23,067 bases of DNA from a virus. Location of the stretch: positions 1 to 23,067 of IMG/VR virus record IMGVR_UViG_3300030616_000083. One strand, written 5' to 3'. Below the pieces are notes generated by a model. It ran no database searches, had not been told where the DNA came from, and was given only the letters and a program-made list of their open reading frames with translations. Shown here piece by piece: positions 1,088 through 16,857 of the stretch; positions within the stretch are counted from its first letter, which is position 1; each line of letters opens with the position of its first letter. The position numbers were made by a program, and so were the translations under genes.

Positions 1088-1666
1088 ATGACTAAAACTA
1101 ATTTGATTATTAAATATAATTTGCAAGACGAAGTAGATGCACTTCTTGATAATGGTTACTCAACATATTCTATCAAAGATGTTATTAGAAACAACTACTC
1201 TGATAAACCAGAGTTATCTAAAATTTCTCATATGGCTATACAAAGATATAAAGAAACTAGAAGTAAAAATAAACTTATAGAACTTGATGAGTCTGGAGAA
1301 GATTTGGTAGAATTCTTGAAGGAAGAATACAAAAATACTACAGATCAAATAAAAAAAGAATTGAAAAAGTGGTCAAATAGAATAGATGATCTATACAAAA
1401 AAGCTGAACAAGACGGTAGTTATTCAGATTTAGCTAAAGTTATTCAACAAGCTAATAAAACTCTTATGGATCAGTTAAAACTATCTGAATCAAAGATGTT
1501 TCATTTAGGAAAACAAGTTAGAAATATCGGAGATATTAACCAGAAGAAGGTTCAAAATTTAAATATAATTATGGTTGATATAGCAAACGATTTATGTCCT
1601 GATTGCAGAATTAAAGCTTTAAATAAATTAAAAGGCTTATATGCAAACAATGTTGATACAGAATGA
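1088..1666 (+). CDS. terS: Probable terminase small subunit (HTH and coiled coil)
   Basis: The protein has 192 residues. Residues about 13-56 look like a helix-turn-helix: an acidic first helix with DALLDNGYSTYSI, then a candidate recognition helix around ISHMAIQRYKE (46-56). Residues about 70-110 are charged and helical, suited to a coiled-coil oligomerisation region. The C-terminal part carries a CPDC pair (170-173). Small terminase subunits recognise viral DNA and load it onto the large subunit; they usually have an N-terminal HTH and helical core and lie just upstream of terL, as here. The family call rests on architecture and position, since small terminases diverge quickly; an HTH regulator is the alternative. 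The ATG has no clear Shine-Dalgarno, only a TTTTAAAATATATAT stretch in front. Confidence 0.55.
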   Translation: MTKTNLIIKYNLQDEVDALLDNGYSTYSIKDVIRNNYSDKPELSKISHMAIQRYKETRSKNKLIELDESGEDLVEFLKEEYKNTTDQIKKELKKWSNRIDDLYKKAEQDGSYSDLAKVIQQANKTLMDQLKLSESKMFHLGKQVRNIGDINQKKVQNLNIIMVDIANDLCPDCRIKALNKLKGLYANNVDTE

Positions 1667-1680
1667 TAAAGGAGATAAAT

Positions 1681-1935
1681 ATGGCAAAAGCTAAATATGT
1701 AGCACAGGTAAGATCTACATATGATCCTTGGATAACTGTAAAGAAATTCTTTATAGGATTAGTAACTACAATAATCCCAGTAATATTATTATACGCTATA
1801 GAATTTCTTCGAAATGAGGAATTTCCACCCGAATATATATGGATTGTTCCTCTATTAGTTGCAATTCTAGATGCAATTTACAATTACCTGAAACATTACG
1901 GTGACACTGAATCTGTAAAAGTAAGAGTTAATTAA
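1681..1935 (+). CDS. Small two-helix membrane protein
   Basis: The protein has 84 residues. The start at 1681 is chosen because AAAGGAG lies just upstream; a longer frame from 1663 would place that ribosome site inside the gene. Two hydrophobic segments are evident, about residues 22-43 and 52-70, joined by a short polar/acidic loop (RNEEFPPEY) and followed by a charged tail. Size and topology fit a small holin or another viral membrane protein. Its position between the small and large terminase is not the usual place for a holin, so function is left open. The preceding gene ends 15 nt before this start, implying co-transcription. Confidence 0.7.
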   Translation: MAKAKYVAQVRSTYDPWITVKKFFIGLVTTIIPVILLYAIEFLRNEEFPPEYIWIVPLLVAILDAIYNYLKHYGDTESVKVRVN

Positions 1936-2347: not shown

Positions 2348-3781
2348 ATGGATAGTAGTCTAGACGCATTAAAATATTCACTTGATTGCAGTTTATTCAT
2401 TAAAGAAGTTCTAGGACTTAAATGTGAAAAATTTCACAGAGAGTGGATAGAACTATTTGAAAATAATAAATATGCATCTCTTTTAGCTCCAAGAGGGCAT
2501 GGAAAATCAGTATTAGTAGGAGCTTATCTAACTTGGAAAATAGTAAAGAATCCTAATATAAGGATATTAACAGTAACTATTAACCAAGATAAAGCTAATG
2601 AAATGATGACTCTAGTGCAAAGAGCATTAGAGAGTAATGATAAATTAATTGAAATTTATGGTCAACAGAAAGGTTATTCTGATTGGTCGCGTTCAACTTT
2701 AAGGGTTCTTAGAGCTGGAAGTGGAGGTAAGGCTAATAAAGAGCCTACATTTACAGTTTATGGTGTCACAGCAGGTATGGTTGGTGGACACTACGATATA
2801 ATAATCCTAGATGATATAACAGATCAAAAAAATTCTAGAACTGAACATAGAAGAAGAGAGTTAGTGAATTGGTATAACTCAACAATAACGCCTATGCTAG
2901 AGCCTAATGGACAAATCATATCCATAGGAACGAGATGGCATGAGGCGGACATTCACAGTTATCTTCAATCTCTATCTAATTATTCTTCAAGAACCTACAA
3001 AGCTATAATAAATGAAGACAATAAAAGAGTTCTATGGCCTGAACAATGGTCTTATGAAGAACTTCTTAAAAGAAAAGCTGGTATGGGAAGTATTGGCTTT
3101 GAAATGCAATATCAAAATGAAATAATATCCACAGAAGATTCCCCAGTTAAGAGGGAATGGATAGAAAACTCAGTAGAAGGATATCAAGAAGCTATAAAAG
3201 AAATAAGAAAAACTGGAGATAATTTACAATCTTATATGGGTGTAGATTTAGCATCTAAAGGTGAAGAATCTGATTATTTCACAATCACGGTAATAGGTAT
3301 AAATAAAGGAAGTATTTTCGTAGTAGATGGTTTAAGAACTAAAGCATCTCTATTCAGACAATTTGAACTAATAAAATCATTTGATAATAAATGGACACCA
3401 GCAAAGATAGGGATAGAGCAAGCAGCTCAACAAAAAATGATAGTAGATCAATTAACAGAATCAACAACACTTCCAATAATTCCGATTAAATCTTCTATTG
3501 TAAATGATAGAATGTCTCGAGTACAAAGATTATCAGTTTTATTTGAAACTGGTAGAATATTTGTAAATCCAAATCTTACAGATTGGATAAACGAATTAAT
3601 ATATTTTCCAAGAGGATCTAACGATGACACAATAGATTCTCTTTCATTTGCCATACAGTCATCCCAACAAGAAGAAGAAAAGCAAGTAGATTGGGAATCT
3701 ATAAAATGTATGGTATCTAAAAATCAAAAACCTGTGGGTAAAGAACTCGATGTAAGAAAATATAAAATAACCAAAATTTGA
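2348..3781 (+). CDS. terL: Terminase large subunit (ATPase and nuclease)
   Basis: The protein has 477 residues and is the motor that cuts viral DNA and pumps it through the portal into the prohead. The N-terminal ATPase shows Walker A APRGHGKS (47-54), Walker B IIILDD (151-156) and the coupling motif SIGTRWH (192-198). The C-terminal RNase H-like nuclease shows MGVDLASKGEESD with Asp300, GIEQ with Glu357, and NDDTIDS with Asp426/427 and Asp430, so the metal-binding acidic set appears intact. Full length for the family. The start is preceded at 26 nt by the promoter-like motif rather than by a clear Shine-Dalgarno. It is followed after 12 nt by the Alba gene, whose GGAGG ribosome site overlaps the end of this gene. 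Confidence 0.95.
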   Translation: MDSSLDALKYSLDCSLFIKEVLGLKCEKFHREWIELFENNKYASLLAPRGHGKSVLVGAYLTWKIVKNPNIRILTVTINQDKANEMMTLVQRALESNDKLIEIYGQQKGYSDWSRSTLRVLRAGSGGKANKEPTFTVYGVTAGMVGGHYDIIILDDITDQKNSRTEHRRRELVNWYNSTITPMLEPNGQIISIGTRWHEADIHSYLQSLSNYSSRTYKAIINEDNKRVLWPEQWSYEELLKRKAGMGSIGFEMQYQNEIISTEDSPVKREWIENSVEGYQEAIKEIRKTGDNLQSYMGVDLASKGEESDYFTITVIGINKGSIFVVDGLRTKASLFRQFELIKSFDNKWTPAKIGIEQAAQQKMIVDQLTESTTLPIIPIKSSIVNDRMSRVQRLSVLFETGRIFVNPNLTDWINELIYFPRGSNDDTIDSLSFAIQSSQQEEEKQVDWESIKCMVSKNQKPVGKELDVRKYKITKI

Positions 3782-3793
3782 TGGAGGAAACAC

Positions 3794-4075
3794 ATGACTG
3801 AACAGATATTTATTGGAAACAAAGATATATCTAGATATATTTCAGCTTGCTTATATTCTCTCGGTAAAGAAGAAAATGTAGTTATCATTTCAAGAGGAAG
3901 TAATGTAAAGAGAGCTGTAGATACTCTAGCAATCTTAATTAGAGATTATTTAGAGAATCCTGAATACAAAATAAAAGTTGGAAGCGAACCTTTTGAAAGT
4001 AGAAATGTATCTACATTGGAAATTACTTTATCAGGAAAGAAAAAAGAAAATTTAAAATTAAAGAAAGAGAAATGA
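3794..4075 (+). CDS. alba: Alba-family nucleic-acid-binding protein
   Basis: The protein has 93 residues. It matches the Alba (Sac10b) layout along its whole length: the N-terminal strand and loop IFIGNKDISRYI (5-16, compare the IGKKPVMNYV type), a helix, then VVIISRGSNVKRAVD (29-43, compare the ARGRAISKAVD type), a second helix, IKVGS (60-64), a short variable beta-hairpin, and VSTLEITLSGKK (72-83). A Lys-rich tail (82-93) extends beyond the core. Alba proteins are dimers that coat DNA and RNA in archaea. A viral copy between terL and portal might compact the genome, protect it or mark it for packaging; that role is inference. GGAGG seven nt before the ATG supports the start. Confidence 0.85.
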   Translation: MTEQIFIGNKDISRYISACLYSLGKEENVVIISRGSNVKRAVDTLAILIRDYLENPEYKIKVGSEPFESRNVSTLEITLSGKKKENLKLKKEK

Positions 4076-4079
4076 TTTT

Positions 4080-6857
4080 ATGAGTATATGGGATAGAATT
4101 CCTATTAAACTAGGTAAAAAACGCTCAGTCTATCTCGATGAAAACGGTAAGCCTAAGAGTATAATAGCTACTGGAAAAGGAATAGAAAAAGGTCAAGTAA
4201 CTGCATCTAGCGATAGAACTGAATCTTTACTTAAGAGTTATAGGGATTATTATGAAGGAGAAAACACTGTATTTGCAGCTATAAATACCACAGCTTGGAA
4301 CTCTATAATGGTTGGATATAGTATTATATCAAAAGATAGTAATGCTAAAATTCTAATAGAAGAATATTTAAATAGGTTAAGTTTGGATTCAGTATTACTT
4401 GATTCTGTAATATTTGCTTTAGTATATGGGGATTCATTTATAGAGATTATAAGAAATTCTAAGAAAGATATAACAGGCTTAAAGAATGTTGATCCCATAA
4501 CTATGAACATATTGTATGATAAATATGGAACAATAGAGGGATATCAACAGAAAATTGGAGGAAAACTTCAAGATTCTGTATTAAATCCAGAAGATATTAT
4601 TCATGTAAAGTTTTTCTCAAAACCTAGTTCTCCTTATGGATTATCTTTGATAGAACCTTCTAAAGAAACTATAGATAGAAAAGTATCAACAGATGAATCT
4701 ATATCAAATGCATTCTCTAGACATGGAACACCTAAATATAAAGTTAAAGTTGGTACACCAGAGGAAATACCTCCAGCTTCTGTTTTTACTGATATAAAAA
4801 GTGAGCTTGAAGATATAAGTGAATTAAATGAAATAATAATACCAGGCTTAGTAGATATAGAAGTATTAGACGAGAAAGGAGTTCCAGGTGTAGAAGAGAT
4901 GGGGAATATATTCCAAACTCAACTTGTTATAGGAATGCTATGCCCAGAAGAAGCTCTTGGTTTAGGAAAAGGAATTTTGCATCCAGATACAGAAATTCTA
5001 GTAAAGGGGAAGGGTTATATACCAATATACGAAGTTAAAGAAAATGACATAATAATGACTTATAATAAAGATACCAACTCTTTGGAGTGGCAACGTAACA
5101 TAAAAACTTGGGAATATGATTTAAATGAAGAATTATTTTCTATAGAAGCTCAAACATTTAATCTTTTATGTACACAAGATCATAGGGTTCTATACAGAGG
5201 TCAACATAAAGAAGATTTTGAAGTATGTCAAGCTCAAGAATTGCCATCACGATTTGAAATGATTGTTGGAGGTATGAATTGGAATGGAGAAAAGTCTAAT
5301 TATGAAATAATTCCATCAGTACCTAGACTTTATGGAAACAAATATATAGAAGGAAAAGTTATAGGAGAATATGAGGAGAAAAAAGTTCTTATAGATACTT
5401 GGTTAAGATTCTTAGGATATTATATATCCGAAGGTTCAACAACAATTTCTAAAGATGGAGCTTATTCTATTAAAATTAAACAAACTAAAAAAGATGACTT
5501 AAATAAAATATTTGAAGATATTAAAGATTTACCATTCAAAATAAACAAGTACAAAGATTGTATAACGATAAATGATAAGCAACTTGGATCTTATTTGAGT
5601 CCTTTAGGAAAATCTTATGAAAAATATATACCAGAGCATATAAAAAGGTTGCCAAAAGAAAAATTATCCATATTATACGATTGTTTAATGTTTGGAGATG
5701 GATGTAAAAATAATTATTTTACATCCTCAAAACAACTAGCTGATGATGTTCAGGAAATAATATTAAAAATGGGATATGGCTCATCAATATATACAAGAGA
5801 TAGAATAGGACATGAAGTTAAAATAAATGGAAAAGTTACGGGTAAATGTAATTTTATACAATATACAGTTACAAGAAACGAGAAGAATTTAACACCAGAA
5901 ATTTGTATTAAAGACACAGATGGACATAAAGATATGCACAAACTTATTCCTTATGAAGGAAAAGCTTATTGCGTTACAGTAGAGAATGGTTTAATATTAT
6001 CAAGATACAATGGTAAGTGTGTAATAACGGGTAATTCAACAGAAGCATGTAATGATAAAAAAACTGAAGTATTAACTAAAGATGGATGGAAAAATTATTG
6101 GGATTTAGTTGATGATGATGAAATTGCAACATTTAACCCAGATACATTACAAATTGAATACGCTAAATCTTTGGAGTCTGTAGATAAATATATCTATAAT
6201 CATAATGGAGATATGGTACATCTACTTAATGATACTACTGATATACTAGTTACACCAAATCATAGGATGTATATTAGTTTAGATAAAAAAGGATGGTATA
6301 TAGAAGAAGCTGAGAATTTATTTAATTTGGATGAATTTTATGTTAGAACTCCAGAATCAATAAATTTAATTAACAAAAAGGATTTAAGTTTAGAATATTA
6401 TAAAGGTAAAGTGTTCAGTCTTAATGTACCAAATCATATATATTTAACACGTAGAAATAATAAAGTAGCTATACAAGGTAATACTGCAAAAATCAAAGAA
6501 GTAATGTACGAGAGATTTATTAAATCTATTCAAACTAAATTAGCTAGCCTAATTAGAAAAGAACTAATAAATAAAATATTAGAAAAAAATAGATTTGAAC
6601 TAAATACAGTTGTTATGAAATTTAATTCAGTGACAGATGCTGATGAAGCTGTAAAATCAAAATGGCTAGGAAATCTTTTAAGAGGTTATCCAGCAGGTAA
6701 ACAACCGTTTACAATAAATGAAGTAAGAGCAATGTTTGATTATCCCCCAGTTGAAGGTGGGGATGAATTAATTGTAGTTAATCAACCTAATGAGGAAAAT
6801 GAAGAAAAACCAAAAGAAGAAAGAGAGGAATCTCCACTTCCCGATGATTCATCTTGA
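4080..6857 (+). CDS. Portal protein precursor with two inteins
   Basis: The precursor has 925 residues. The N-extein (1-298) and C-extein (802-925) are portal-like: YYEGENTVFAAINTTA, VDPITM, IIHVKF then PYGLS, and LNEIIIPGLVDIEVL. Two inteins occupy 299-652 and 657-801 with residues STEA between them. Removing both joins LGLGKG-STEA-TAKIKE, which restores the conserved LGxGxGSTEATA-like segment of such portals and gives a 426-residue mature protein, a normal size. The portal is the dodecameric ring at one head vertex through which DNA passes and to which the tail attaches. The C-terminus is acidic/proline-rich and overlaps the next gene by 14 nt. Production of portal, and so of virions, depends on both splicing events. 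Confidence 0.9.
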   Translation: MSIWDRIPIKLGKKRSVYLDENGKPKSIIATGKGIEKGQVTASSDRTESLLKSYRDYYEGENTVFAAINTTAWNSIMVGYSIISKDSNAKILIEEYLNRLSLDSVLLDSVIFALVYGDSFIEIIRNSKKDITGLKNVDPITMNILYDKYGTIEGYQQKIGGKLQDSVLNPEDIIHVKFFSKPSSPYGLSLIEPSKETIDRKVSTDESISNAFSRHGTPKYKVKVGTPEEIPPASVFTDIKSELEDISELNEIIIPGLVDIEVLDEKGVPGVEEMGNIFQTQLVIGMLCPEEALGLGKGILHPDTEILVKGKGYIPIYEVKENDIIMTYNKDTNSLEWQRNIKTWEYDLNEELFSIEAQTFNLLCTQDHRVLYRGQHKEDFEVCQAQELPSRFEMIVGGMNWNGEKSNYEIIPSVPRLYGNKYIEGKVIGEYEEKKVLIDTWLRFLGYYISEGSTTISKDGAYSIKIKQTKKDDLNKIFEDIKDLPFKINKYKDCITINDKQLGSYLSPLGKSYEKYIPEHIKRLPKEKLSILYDCLMFGDGCKNNYFTSSKQLADDVQEIILKMGYGSSIYTRDRIGHEVKINGKVTGKCNFIQYTVTRNEKNLTPEICIKDTDGHKDMHKLIPYEGKAYCVTVENGLILSRYNGKCVITGNSTEACNDKKTEVLTKDGWKNYWDLVDDDEIATFNPDTLQIEYAKSLESVDKYIYNHNGDMVHLLNDTTDILVTPNHRMYISLDKKGWYIEEAENLFNLDEFYVRTPESINLINKKDLSLEYYKGKVFSLNVPNHIYLTRRNNKVAIQGNTAKIKEVMYERFIKSIQTKLASLIRKELINKILEKNRFELNTVVMKFNSVTDADEAVKSKWLGNLLRGYPAGKQPFTINEVRAMFDYPPVEGGDELIVVNQPNEENEEKPKEEREESPLPDDSS
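4974..6035 (+). other. Intein 1 with LAGLIDADG-type homing endonuclease
   Basis: This intein has 354 residues (portal residues 299-652). Block A is ILHPDTEIL; block B is LLCTQDH with T67 and H70 (intein numbering). The endonuclease blocks are FLGYYISEG (146-154) and LYDCLMFGDG (234-243), with the acidic residues present. Block F is AYCVTVENGLIL with C333, block G is CVITGN ending in Asn354, and +1 is Ser. Residue 1 is Ile rather than Cys, Ser or Thr. Cys at block F position 4 and Thr at block G position 5 are two of the three marks of class 3 inteins. The third, Trp at block B position 12, is not seen (Val lies there). The penultimate residue is Gly, not His. Confidence 0.85.
6048..6482 (+). 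other. Intein 2, mini-intein without endonuclease
   Basis: This intein has 145 residues (portal residues 657-801). It starts with Cys1 in CNDKKTEVLTKDGWK, has block B LVTPNH (Thr69, His72), block F KVFSLNVPNHIYL, and block G VAIQGN ending in Asn145, followed by Thr at +1. This is a standard class 1 set apart from Gly at the penultimate position. The length and lack of any LAGLIDADG block show it has no homing endonuclease, so it is either an ancient remnant or an originally minimal element. Only 12 nt (STEA) separate it from intein 1. Confidence 0.9.
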
Positions 6858-7305
6858 TTATGATACAAAAATTCTTTCAAAGTCAACAGATGCAAGAATA
6901 TATAAAGGAGCTACTCTACTCACTGAAGGAGAATTTTCTGATTCAATAACTAGAAGTCCAGTAGTCTATACACAAGAAGAAATATCTAAATCAGCTGGCA
7001 ATTGGACTCAAAATTATTTGAATCTTGATCACTCATTTGATGTAAGAGATAGACTTGGGTTTGTTAAAGATACCTACTTTTCTAAAGGAGTAGTTAAAGG
7101 AGATTTATATATATTTCCAATAACACAAGCGGCTAGAGATACTATAGCTCTTATAGATGCAGGATTAGTCAATTGGTTATCTGTAGAAATAACTACAGAA
7201 GACTATTGGAATGAAGATGATAATAAAAGATATGCATCTAACATTGAATTTATAGGAGCTGCAATTTGTTTGTATCCAGCTTGTGAAGGTACAAGGATAA
7301 AATGA
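6844..7305 (+). CDS. Prohead-protease-like protein
   Basis: The protein has 153 residues. The start is ATG 6844, just inside the end of the portal gene; a longer frame from 6790 would only add Lys-rich shadow sequence. The pattern resembles Caudoviricetes prohead proteases: LNLDHSFDVRDRLGFVKD with candidate catalytic His63, AGLVNWLSVEITTED with candidate nucleophile Ser113, and the late strand IEFIGAAICLYPACEG. The gene at 9204 shows the same order of motifs fused to a scaffold. This one lacks a scaffold tail. It may be the working protease, an accessory protease or an inactive relative. Position directly after portal is typical for a protease. Confidence 0.6.
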   Translation: MIHLDYDTKILSKSTDARIYKGATLLTEGEFSDSITRSPVVYTQEEISKSAGNWTQNYLNLDHSFDVRDRLGFVKDTYFSKGVVKGDLYIFPITQAARDTIALIDAGLVNWLSVEITTEDYWNEDDNKRYASNIEFIGAAICLYPACEGTRIK

Positions 7306-13012: not shown

Positions 13013-13435
13013 ATGTCAGATTATACTCCATTGTATGTAAAAGAAGAAGACGTAAGAGGTTTTTTCACACCACCATTAGATTATAATGATGTTACAAAGA
13101 ATGAAATTCTAAGAAAAATAGAAGCTGTTGAAGATTTCGTAAATGCAGTATATTTCAATAATTCTCAAACAAGTGCAACATATGCTAGAATACCTTGTTT
13201 ATTATTAATAGCATCCAAAATAATTCTAACTCCAGCATTAGCTAAAAAATATTACACTTTAAATAGAGAAGTTCTTGGAGATTACGAATACGAATTAGCT
13301 CAACCAATATCTAGAGGAACAGATATTCAGTCATCCCCATTTGTTATATCAATAACTTGGGAAAAGATGGCTATAAAAATGCTAGAAAAAAGAACTTCAT
13401 TAGGTAAGTGGAAGATGTACAAAGCTAATGACTGA
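13013..13435 (+). CDS. Head-tail connector (adaptor) protein
   Basis: The protein has 140 residues with a strong AGGAGATAAAAT ribosome site. It is mainly helical: an N-terminal YTPLYVKEEDVRGFF, helix KNEILRKIEAVEDFVNAVYF, helix ARIPCLLLIASKIILTPALA, a variable middle, and the helix WEKMAIKMLEKRT. This fits the adaptor ring (gp6/gp15-type) bound under the portal. Size and location, following capsid and preceding stopper, gp10-like and terminator genes, agree. Its stop overlaps the next start (TGATG). Confidence 0.65.
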   Translation: MSDYTPLYVKEEDVRGFFTPPLDYNDVTKNEILRKIEAVEDFVNAVYFNNSQTSATYARIPCLLLIASKIILTPALAKKYYTLNREVLGDYEYELAQPISRGTDIQSSPFVISITWEKMAIKMLEKRTSLGKWKMYKAND

Positions 13436-13674
13436 TGACATATAATAGACCATCAAATTTATACCCTCTTAACTGGAATAGACTAAGATTTGCTTTATTC
13501 AAGAAGCATAACTATACTTGTGAAAGATGTGGGAGATATTCTAAAGGAGATTTACATTTACATCACAAGATACCAGTAAAAATGGGTGGAAGTCACGATG
13601 AGTCTAATTTAGAAGTTCTATGCTCTGATTGTCATTATCAAGAACATCTAAGAAGAAGGAGAATATATAGATGA
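13435..13674 (+). CDS. HNH endonuclease
   Basis: The protein has 79 residues. It shows the complete HNH set: CERC (29-32), LHLHHKIPVKMGG with His43/His44, NLEVLC with Asn58, and CSDCH (63-67). The two CxxC pairs bind structural zinc, and His/Asn/His form the nicking site. Small HNH proteins near packaging genes assist terminase cleavage in some tailed viruses; free-standing ones can also be homing nucleases. It sits inside the connector gene chain, overlapping both neighbours by a few bases, which favours a built-in viral role over a recent insertion. Confidence 0.88.
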   Translation: MTYNRPSNLYPLNWNRLRFALFKKHNYTCERCGRYSKGDLHLHHKIPVKMGGSHDESNLEVLCSDCHYQEHLRRRRIYR

Positions 13675-14962: not shown

Positions 14963-15442
14963 ATGGCAGGAACAGTAACAGGAGAAGATGCAAAAGTATT
15001 AATTACAGTTCATGGTGCTGGAGCAGCTCCATCATTTTCATATAATCATTCATATTGGGGTATAGGAGATTTTTCTTTAACAGTTGATAGAGGAACAATA
15101 GAGCAGAATTTAGTTGGAGAAGATGGTAATTATTTCGATCAAGGAGCATTATCCTTAGATGGTTCATTAACAGCAATAAAATTTGGTGCTTCTGGAATGT
15201 CTCAAATGCTAAACAATATCATTGAAGCTTCAGATTCTTATCAATATCTAGCTATATCAGGTACTGTTTGCTCTACCGATGCAACTTTGAATCATATTTC
15301 TTGGTATCTAACATCTTGTCAAGTTACAGGTTATGATATATCAATTGGAGATGCGGATACTATAACCGAAGCGAGCATTGACTTTACAGTTATAAACCCA
15401 TTTAAAGTTTCCTATGCTGGTGGATGTATAAAGGATGCGTGA
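14963..15442 (+). CDS. Tail-tube-like protein A1
   Basis: The protein has 159 residues. It is beta-rich: MAGTVTGEDAKVLITVHG, WGIGDFSLTVDRGT, NLVGEDGNYFDQGALSLDGS, ISWYLTSCQVTGYDISIGDA then DTITEASIDFTVINP. These Gly/Asp-punctuated strands and the final TEASIDFTV strand resemble major tail tube proteins of long flexible tails. It is the first of four tandem relatives and closest to the gene at 15913. It follows the tail terminator, where a tube gene is expected. Confidence 0.65.
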   Translation: MAGTVTGEDAKVLITVHGAGAAPSFSYNHSYWGIGDFSLTVDRGTIEQNLVGEDGNYFDQGALSLDGSLTAIKFGASGMSQMLNNIIEASDSYQYLAISGTVCSTDATLNHISWYLTSCQVTGYDISIGDADTITEASIDFTVINPFKVSYAGGCIKDA

Positions 15443-15447
15443 TATAA

Positions 15448-15912
15448 ATGGCAGTTAATCCTACAGTATATACTGGTGAAGATGCAACTCTCAATATTAA
15501 AACAGGTGGATCCTTTAGAGGTCATTCAACTTTAGCTATATCAGATTTTTCACTAACTATTTCTAGAGATGTAGCTGAACAAGAATTGGTTGGAGAAGCT
15601 GGAAATTATTTTCTAGCAGGTTCAATGTCAGCAGATGGATCTTTAGGTGCATGTAAGTTACATAGTACCGCAGTTGGTTATTTGTTATCAGATATGATTG
15701 CTGGTAATACAGTACAAATATCAGGTATGTGTGGTCCTAATAGTTTACACTTTTTCCTTCATAGTTGTCAGATAACTGGATTTGATTTTTCAATTGGTCC
15801 AGCTGATGAAATTACTGAAGGTACCATTGATTACACATTGTTATATCCTTATAGATTATCTACCAACAGTAAAGAATTAGGTGGATATACCTATCTAAGA
15901 GAGGTGTGGTAA
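15448..15912 (+). CDS. Tail-tube-like protein B1
   Basis: The protein has 154 residues. It shares the fold pattern of A1 (AISDFSLTISRDVAEQELVG, then EAGNYFLAGSMSADGSL, and GFDFSIGPADEITEGTID), but is most similar to the gene at 16411, with which it shares YTGEDATL, AEQEL, SLHF and ITGFDFS. The stop is followed immediately by the next ATG. GCGTGATATAA before the ATG is the ribosome site. A heteromeric tube, a tube plus a minor tube protein, or a chaperone-specific partner are the possible roles. Confidence 0.6.
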   Translation: MAVNPTVYTGEDATLNIKTGGSFRGHSTLAISDFSLTISRDVAEQELVGEAGNYFLAGSMSADGSLGACKLHSTAVGYLLSDMIAGNTVQISGMCGPNSLHFFLHSCQITGFDFSIGPADEITEGTIDYTLLYPYRLSTNSKELGGYTYLREVW

Positions 15913-16404
15913 ATGGCAGGAACAGTAACAGGTAAAAATGCATCATTAAGATTTGCTATACATTCAGGTGGTGCAACAGCTGCAAATATATGGTCAACTA
16001 GTTACACTCATTCAACTTGGGGTATAGGAGATTTCTCTCTTACATTCGATAAAGGTGTAAATGAGAGTAATCTTATAGGAGAAAGAGGAAATTATTCTAA
16101 AGCTGGTTCTTTAACAATAGATGGTTCTTTAACCGCTGTTAAATTTGGAGCATCAGGAAATAGAATATTTCTAGATAATTTAGTACCTCCTTTAGGAGAT
16201 GCAAATTACGACTATTTAGCAATATCAGGAGCAGTTTCTACAGATACAGATGCAACTTATCTTAGATGGTGTTTACATTCATGTCAAGTAACTGGATATG
16301 ATGTAAGTCTAGGTGATGCTAATACTATAACTGAAGCTAGCATTGATTTTACTGTAATGAATCCAGATTCTATAAGTTATTCAGATCCTGTAATTAAGGG
16401 GTGA
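15913..16404 (+). CDS. Tail-tube-like protein A2
   Basis: The protein has 163 residues and is a duplicate of A1: both genes begin with the identical 20 bases ATGGCAGGAACAGTAACAGG, and both have WGIGDFSLT, LTAxKFGASG, YLAISG, SCQVTGYD and TITEASIDFTV. It differs from A1 mainly in a longer N-terminal loop (ATAANIWSTSYTHS) and a loop before DYLAISG. GAGGTGTGG before the ATG is the ribosome site. Retention of all landmarks suggests it is functional. Confidence 0.6.
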   Translation: MAGTVTGKNASLRFAIHSGGATAANIWSTSYTHSTWGIGDFSLTFDKGVNESNLIGERGNYSKAGSLTIDGSLTAVKFGASGNRIFLDNLVPPLGDANYDYLAISGAVSTDTDATYLRWCLHSCQVTGYDVSLGDANTITEASIDFTVMNPDSISYSDPVIKG

Positions 16405-16410
16405 TAAAAT

Positions 16411-16857
16411 ATGGCACAAAGTCCAACAATTTATACTGGTGAAGATGCAACTCTTTGTATAAGTGGATTAACACATTCTGTGTTAGCAATCTCAGATTTT
16501 TCACTAACATTGAGTAAAGGTACTGCTGAGCAAGAATTATTAGGATCTACTGGTAATTATCAAATAGCTGGTTCTTTATCTTGTGAAGGTTCTTTAACAT
16601 CTTGTAAGCTTCATAATACTGCTTTAGGAAAATTAATAGCAAATCTGATGGGCAGTGATGAAGTAGAGATATCAGGATCTTGTGGATCAAATAGTTTACA
16701 CTTTGATTTAGATAAGTGTATAATTACTGGATTTGATTTCAGTCTTGGTACAGCTGGAGATATAACTGAAGGAACAGTTGATTTTACTCACTTAGAACCT
16801 TACAATATATCAGTACAAAGAACTGGTTTGGGATACACCCGATTGATAGATAACTAA
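16411..16857 (+). CDS. Tail-tube-like protein B2
   Basis: The protein has 148 residues and is a duplicate of B1: YTGEDATL, LAISDFSLTLSKGTAEQELL, SLSCEGSLTSCKLHNTALG, CGSNSLHFDLDKCIITGFDF, DITEGTVDFTHLEPY. It lacks the short insertion that B1 has after DATL. Together the four genes form A-B-A-B, which implies an A/B duplication followed by duplication of the pair. GGGGTGATAAA precedes the ATG. Confidence 0.6.
   Translation: MAQSPTIYTGEDATLCISGLTHSVLAISDFSLTLSKGTAEQELLGSTGNYQIAGSLSCEGSLTSCKLHNTALGKLIANLMGSDEVEISGSCGSNSLHFDLDKCIITGFDFSLGTAGDITEGTVDFTHLEPYNISVQRTGLGYTRLIDN

Follow-up and report, generated by a model that had tools for sequence, protein, structure and literature searches.

In the usual view of tailed viruses, TerL, TerS and a portal load DNA that is naked. 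A small virus-encoded organiser of viral DNA is known from phi29, in which protein p6 (PMC11894785) resembles the protein described here in function only, its fold and family being unrelated. In Sulfolobus, Alba contacts nucleic acids through K16, K17, Y22, R42, R44 and R83 (PMC7498313; PMC4200833), and M20, L24, L27 and F60 form its dimer-dimer patch (PMC7498313; PMC4200833). In vivo, S. islandicus depends on K17. Binding by Sis10b suffers when K16N/R44I and R83T are combined, and its RNA chaperone activity requires K17 and not K16 (PMC7498313). Viruses are not mentioned in a 2024 survey of Alba domains (PMC11621453).

Here we describe a virus-encoded Alba located between TerL and the portal in a 23,067-nt stretch of viral DNA (IMG/VR record IMGVR_UViG_3300030616_000083, referred to as the window). 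None in such a position came up in the open-licence literature searched, and earlier reports may exist.

Alba gene and packaging module

The module comprises the following features, with coordinates given in the window:
1088..1666, + strand: conserved helical protein, a candidate small terminase judged from its location alone (same place in most relatives)
1663..1935, + strand: small conserved membrane-like protein (same place in most relatives)
2348..3781, + strand: terminase large subunit (TerL), directly upstream of Alba (PHROG 38, E=2e-87; Pfam Terminase_6C)
3783..3787, + strand: GGAGG ribosome binding site, 6 nt before the Alba ATG (read from the sequence)
3794..4075, + strand: viral Alba-superfamily protein, 93 aa (Pfam Alba, AF2 model, Foldseek)
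4080..6857, + strand: portal protein, directly downstream of Alba, with two intein-like insertions (Pfam Phage_portal, E=1.6e-12; intein domains)
6790..7305, + strand: conserved gene after the portal, weakly like phage head proteases (Peptidase_S78_2, under the cut-off; same place in most relatives)

As the original prediction had stated, the Alba gene is tightly packed between terminase and portal behind a ribosome site: terL ends at 3781, 12 nt before the Alba ATG at 3794, and the Alba stop at 4075 is followed after 4 nt by the portal ATG at 4080. Purine-rich ribosome sites comparable to the GGAGG of the window were present in many relatives. All the Alba landmarks that had been picked out from the letters were present in the 93-aa ORF, and their match was above chance. 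When the window protein was searched against Pfam PF01918, a check that had been proposed with the prediction, it passed the gathering cut-off of 25 with 35.7 bits (E=7.4e-9), and it matched the PDB Alba AF1956 with phmmer (E=2.5e-7). All 21 members of the viral alignment matched Pfam Alba.

Structure prediction, the second proposed check, recovered the expected Alba topology. The AF2 model, built from 21 viral sequences, had a mean pLDDT of 89.8 and the order E-H-E-H-E-E (beta1-alpha1-beta2-alpha2-beta3-beta4). Among solved structures, Foldseek ranked Mja10b Alba (1nh9) first, with a target-normalised TM-score of 0.91. Complexes of Alba2 with DNA (3u6y) and of Alba with RNA (3wbm) were matched as well, and the top 28 matches were all Alba or Alba-like chains. 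In a library of predicted viral structures, a SpoVS-like protein was the single match with E<0.001, and no close Alba was found. The ORF at 3794-4075 encodes a true Alba-superfamily protein, and family, fold and conserved place in the packaging module agree with the view that it is a viral one.

Distribution, conservation and origin

With the protein itself, alignments and TerL as queries, the viral collection yielded 41 Alba-bearing contigs besides the window, and a genome collection added a single 4.1-kb contig from a Thermoplasmata MAG. The same gene had been expected beside terL in related contigs, and Alba indeed sits between TerL and the portal in all 41 viral contigs and in the MAG contig; several of these are near copies of each other, and therefore the independent lineages are fewer than the contig count. 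A more distant TerL relative (37% identity; L053, L054) lacks Alba at that place, and named phages and plasmids gave no match to the Alba protein. An Alba in the packaging module can serve to recognise a broad family of uncultivated tailed viruses that probably infect archaea.

The median identity to the window over 36 loci was 68% for Alba and 58% for TerL, and Alba was the more similar of the two in 26 of them. For the four Alba pairs with estimable dS, dN was 0.03-0.21 and dS 0.6-2.0, while a fifth pair had a dN of 0.09 with dS saturated. The viral Alba is under purifying selection.

A tree was built from 53 proteins: 28 viral ones and a narrow cellular set, made up of 21 from the MAG's order and four Albas with solved structures. 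The 28 viral proteins formed one clade with support of 100/99, on a long branch from the sampled cellular Albas. Most likely, the ancestor of the virus family acquired Alba once from an archaeal cell. The viral protein shares with cellular archaeal Alba (PF01918; for example Mja10b, AF1956 and Sso10b) the fold, the length, the K17, Y22 and R42 equivalents, the RG motif and the VST-type end of the hairpin; it differs in scoring far under the equivalog cut-off, in its changed K40, R44 and F60 equivalents, in its packaging-module location and in its long branch. Like the viral protein, a second Alba paralogue in genomes of the Thermoplasmata order (for example L061 and L081) has a short beta3-beta4 hairpin (ENRNVSAIEI versus the viral ESRNVSTLEI) and is basic at window position 14, but its identity is about 37% and it falls outside the viral clade.

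Four large contigs in the viral collection also carry Alba genes of cellular type (L114:4040-4321, L115:3983-4291, L116:3986-4258 and L117:3968-4243). These genes are nearer to cellular Albas than to the viral clade, and inspection of the ORF lists recognised no terL or portal beside them.

Nucleic-acid contacts and possible functions

Residues of the 28 viral sequences were mapped onto Sulfolobus numbering by our own alignment. K10, Y15 and R34, the equivalents of K17, Y22 and R42, were invariant (28/28). Position 9, equivalent to K16, was variable and is N in the window protein. The R44 equivalent is S36 in the window and mostly N or S in the viral family, the F60 equivalent is Y52 in the window and mostly Y or H in the family, and the M20 and L24 equivalents (S13 and S17) are mostly S or T. 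The K40 equivalent was changed in the viral proteins, the R83 region was changed or missing, and the beta3-beta4 hairpin was shorter than that of classic Alba in most members. Virus-specific invariant residues were R50 and S64, with D11, A46 and P66 mostly so, and new basic residues were found at K39 (27/28) and R50 (28/28).

The replacement of the classic KK pair by NK, pointed out in the original prediction, holds for the window protein but carries no special meaning, as NK is common in cellular Albas: N was the commonest residue at the K16 position in the cellular set (17/25), and A. fulgidus Alba is also NK. The Lys-rich tail was found at window residues 83-93, and its length varied among relatives; without it, the window protein has no net charge. 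Considering the loss or change of R44, R83 and the stacking patch, together with a score of 34.4 bits against the cut-off of 88.25 for the Alba equivalog NCBIfam TIGR00285, we regard the window protein as a virus-specific Alba-superfamily variant and not as an ordinary cellular Alba. From the residues, we infer that the kept K17, Y22 and R42 equivalents and the altered patch would mean retained nucleic-acid binding with changed stacking between dimers.

In our reading, the protein is a late nucleic-acid-binding factor tied to packaging, to which we assign a probability of about 0.5. The conserved position between TerL and the portal suggests a packaging role. Alba is now a core gene of this module and, judging from gene order, would be transcribed late together with terL and portal. 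Its product would most likely be a small, presumably dimeric protein with putative DNA-binding activity that coats or organises viral DNA on its way into the terminase-portal motor or, alternatively, keeps host chromatin proteins off that DNA. The idea raised earlier that packaged or replicating viral DNA is bound by the viral Alba is plausible on these grounds. The change or loss of R44 and of the R83 region, N at K16 combined with S at R44, and the zero net charge without the tail count against this reading. The locus suggests that the packaging of viral genomes came to include a protein of host chromatin. More tentatively, and with the odds somewhat against it, an archaeal chromatin protein captured once might now be an obligate packaging component that works with TerL and the portal on the loaded DNA. 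A strongly conserved Alba fixed in the packaging module would connect archaeal chromatin with the loading of viral DNA, and the viral Alba offers a concrete gene for testing this connection.

It is unlikely, though worth weighing, that Alba works chiefly on RNA, as a binding protein or chaperone for viral mRNA or for a viral RNA of the packaging operon. The K17 and Y22 equivalents are invariant in the viral set; viruses keep K17 and vary K16, in line with the K17-dependent and K16-independent chaperone activity of Sis10b (PMC7498313); the model matches an Alba-RNA complex; and a subset of relatives share a conserved inverted repeat upstream of terL. However, none of the tests for an RNA partner lent support. 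The region upstream of terL had no match in Rfam, the RNAalifold consensus had 10 pairs with a single compensatory change, for 10 of 12 sequences folded singly the z-score against shuffles was close to zero, and in a proposed second helix the pairing within sequences was no better than that between sequences. The stretch upstream of terL is, moreover, shorter than 60 nt in several Alba-bearing relatives and mostly missing in many. A structured RNA ligand upstream of terL is not supported, and neither is the earlier suggestion that Alba binds an RNA from that place.

In the window, conserved sequence occurs within 1936-2090 and includes the inverted repeat 1989-2002/2057-2072. The repeat (CRTACC..GGTTCT / AGAACC..GGTATG) and the two TATGT motifs that come after it occupy 1989-2082, upstream of a small membrane ORF. 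The element of inverted repeat and TATGT is retained in about half of the relatives, and the stretch may be a protein-binding or promoter site.

Disturbance of host chromatin by Alba, for example through heterodimers with host Alba that weaken the nucleoid, appears improbable. Sulfolobus Alba2, which lacks F60, is an obligate heterodimer with Alba1 and alters DNA condensation (PMC4200833); the viral protein likewise lacks the F60-type patch (S13, S17, Y52), and one to two cellular Albas are encoded in most of the Thermoplasmata genomes searched. Nevertheless, the fixed late-packaging position and the conservation above TerL fit virion assembly better than early takeover. We give similarly low odds to Alba being packaged along with the DNA as a protein of the virion interior. 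Its gene lies within the structural block, and SSV1 packages a cellular chromatin protein according to Quemin 2015 as cited in PMC10848311 and PMC11894785, but by sequence such a protein is indistinguishable from the late packaging factor that we favour. That the Alba fold now serves contacts between proteins of the packaging motor or head and has lost nucleic-acid binding, as the several lost binding residues and the virus-specific R50 and S64 (and mostly D11, A46 and P66) could be taken to mean, is very improbable in view of the retained K17, Y22 and R42 equivalents and the added basic K39 and R50.

Host and neighbouring genes

An archaeal host, as originally proposed, is likely on indirect grounds. 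The genes of a 144-kb relative include those for a family-B DNA polymerase and for a Rad51/RadA-like protein; a 33-kb relative has PCNA, and in a set of 14 control genomes only archaea had it; and a homologous contig is placed in the Thermoplasmata MAG. The gene content of this MAG contig is wholly viral, and its place in the Thermoplasmata bin could be a binning error. Evidence from spacers and proviruses did not add to the proposal: one Guaymas-type virus compared with 80 genomes of the class of the MAG gave weak short spacer-like matches only, the best of which had no repeat array beside it, and the provirus search of 390 genomes of the phylum returned, apart from the MAG contig, one weak cellular Alba and nothing else. 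MCM and TFIIB were absent from the viral records searched. The 144-kb relative (L085-L086) also contains an extended series of ORFs named by reading as sugar-nucleotide, glycosyltransferase-like and radical-SAM-like.

As for the neighbours of Alba, the protein at 1088-1666 gave an all-helical AF2 model, for which the PDB search returned no significant match, and Pfam and PHROG searches gave no family for the protein at 1663-1935. A double motif, TATGTTTTTATGTTT, lies at 2313-2327, about 25 nt before the terL ATG, and is conserved in many relatives; the terL ATG has no ribosome site, and the motif is perhaps the promoter of a leaderless gene. The insertions in the portal (4080-6857) were shown by comparison with the uninterrupted portal of L029. 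The two intein-like insertions are separated by four extein residues (GKG / STEA / TAK), and the first of them starts with Ile (Pro in L036) and not with Cys or Ser. TerL is interrupted too in L017 and L018. A small HNH-type nuclease ORF is located at 13435-13674, and similar ORFs adjoin the portal module in L018, L034 and L101. Further downstream, four successive related ORFs of approximately 150-160 aa at 14963-16857 are probably tail proteins that arose by duplication.
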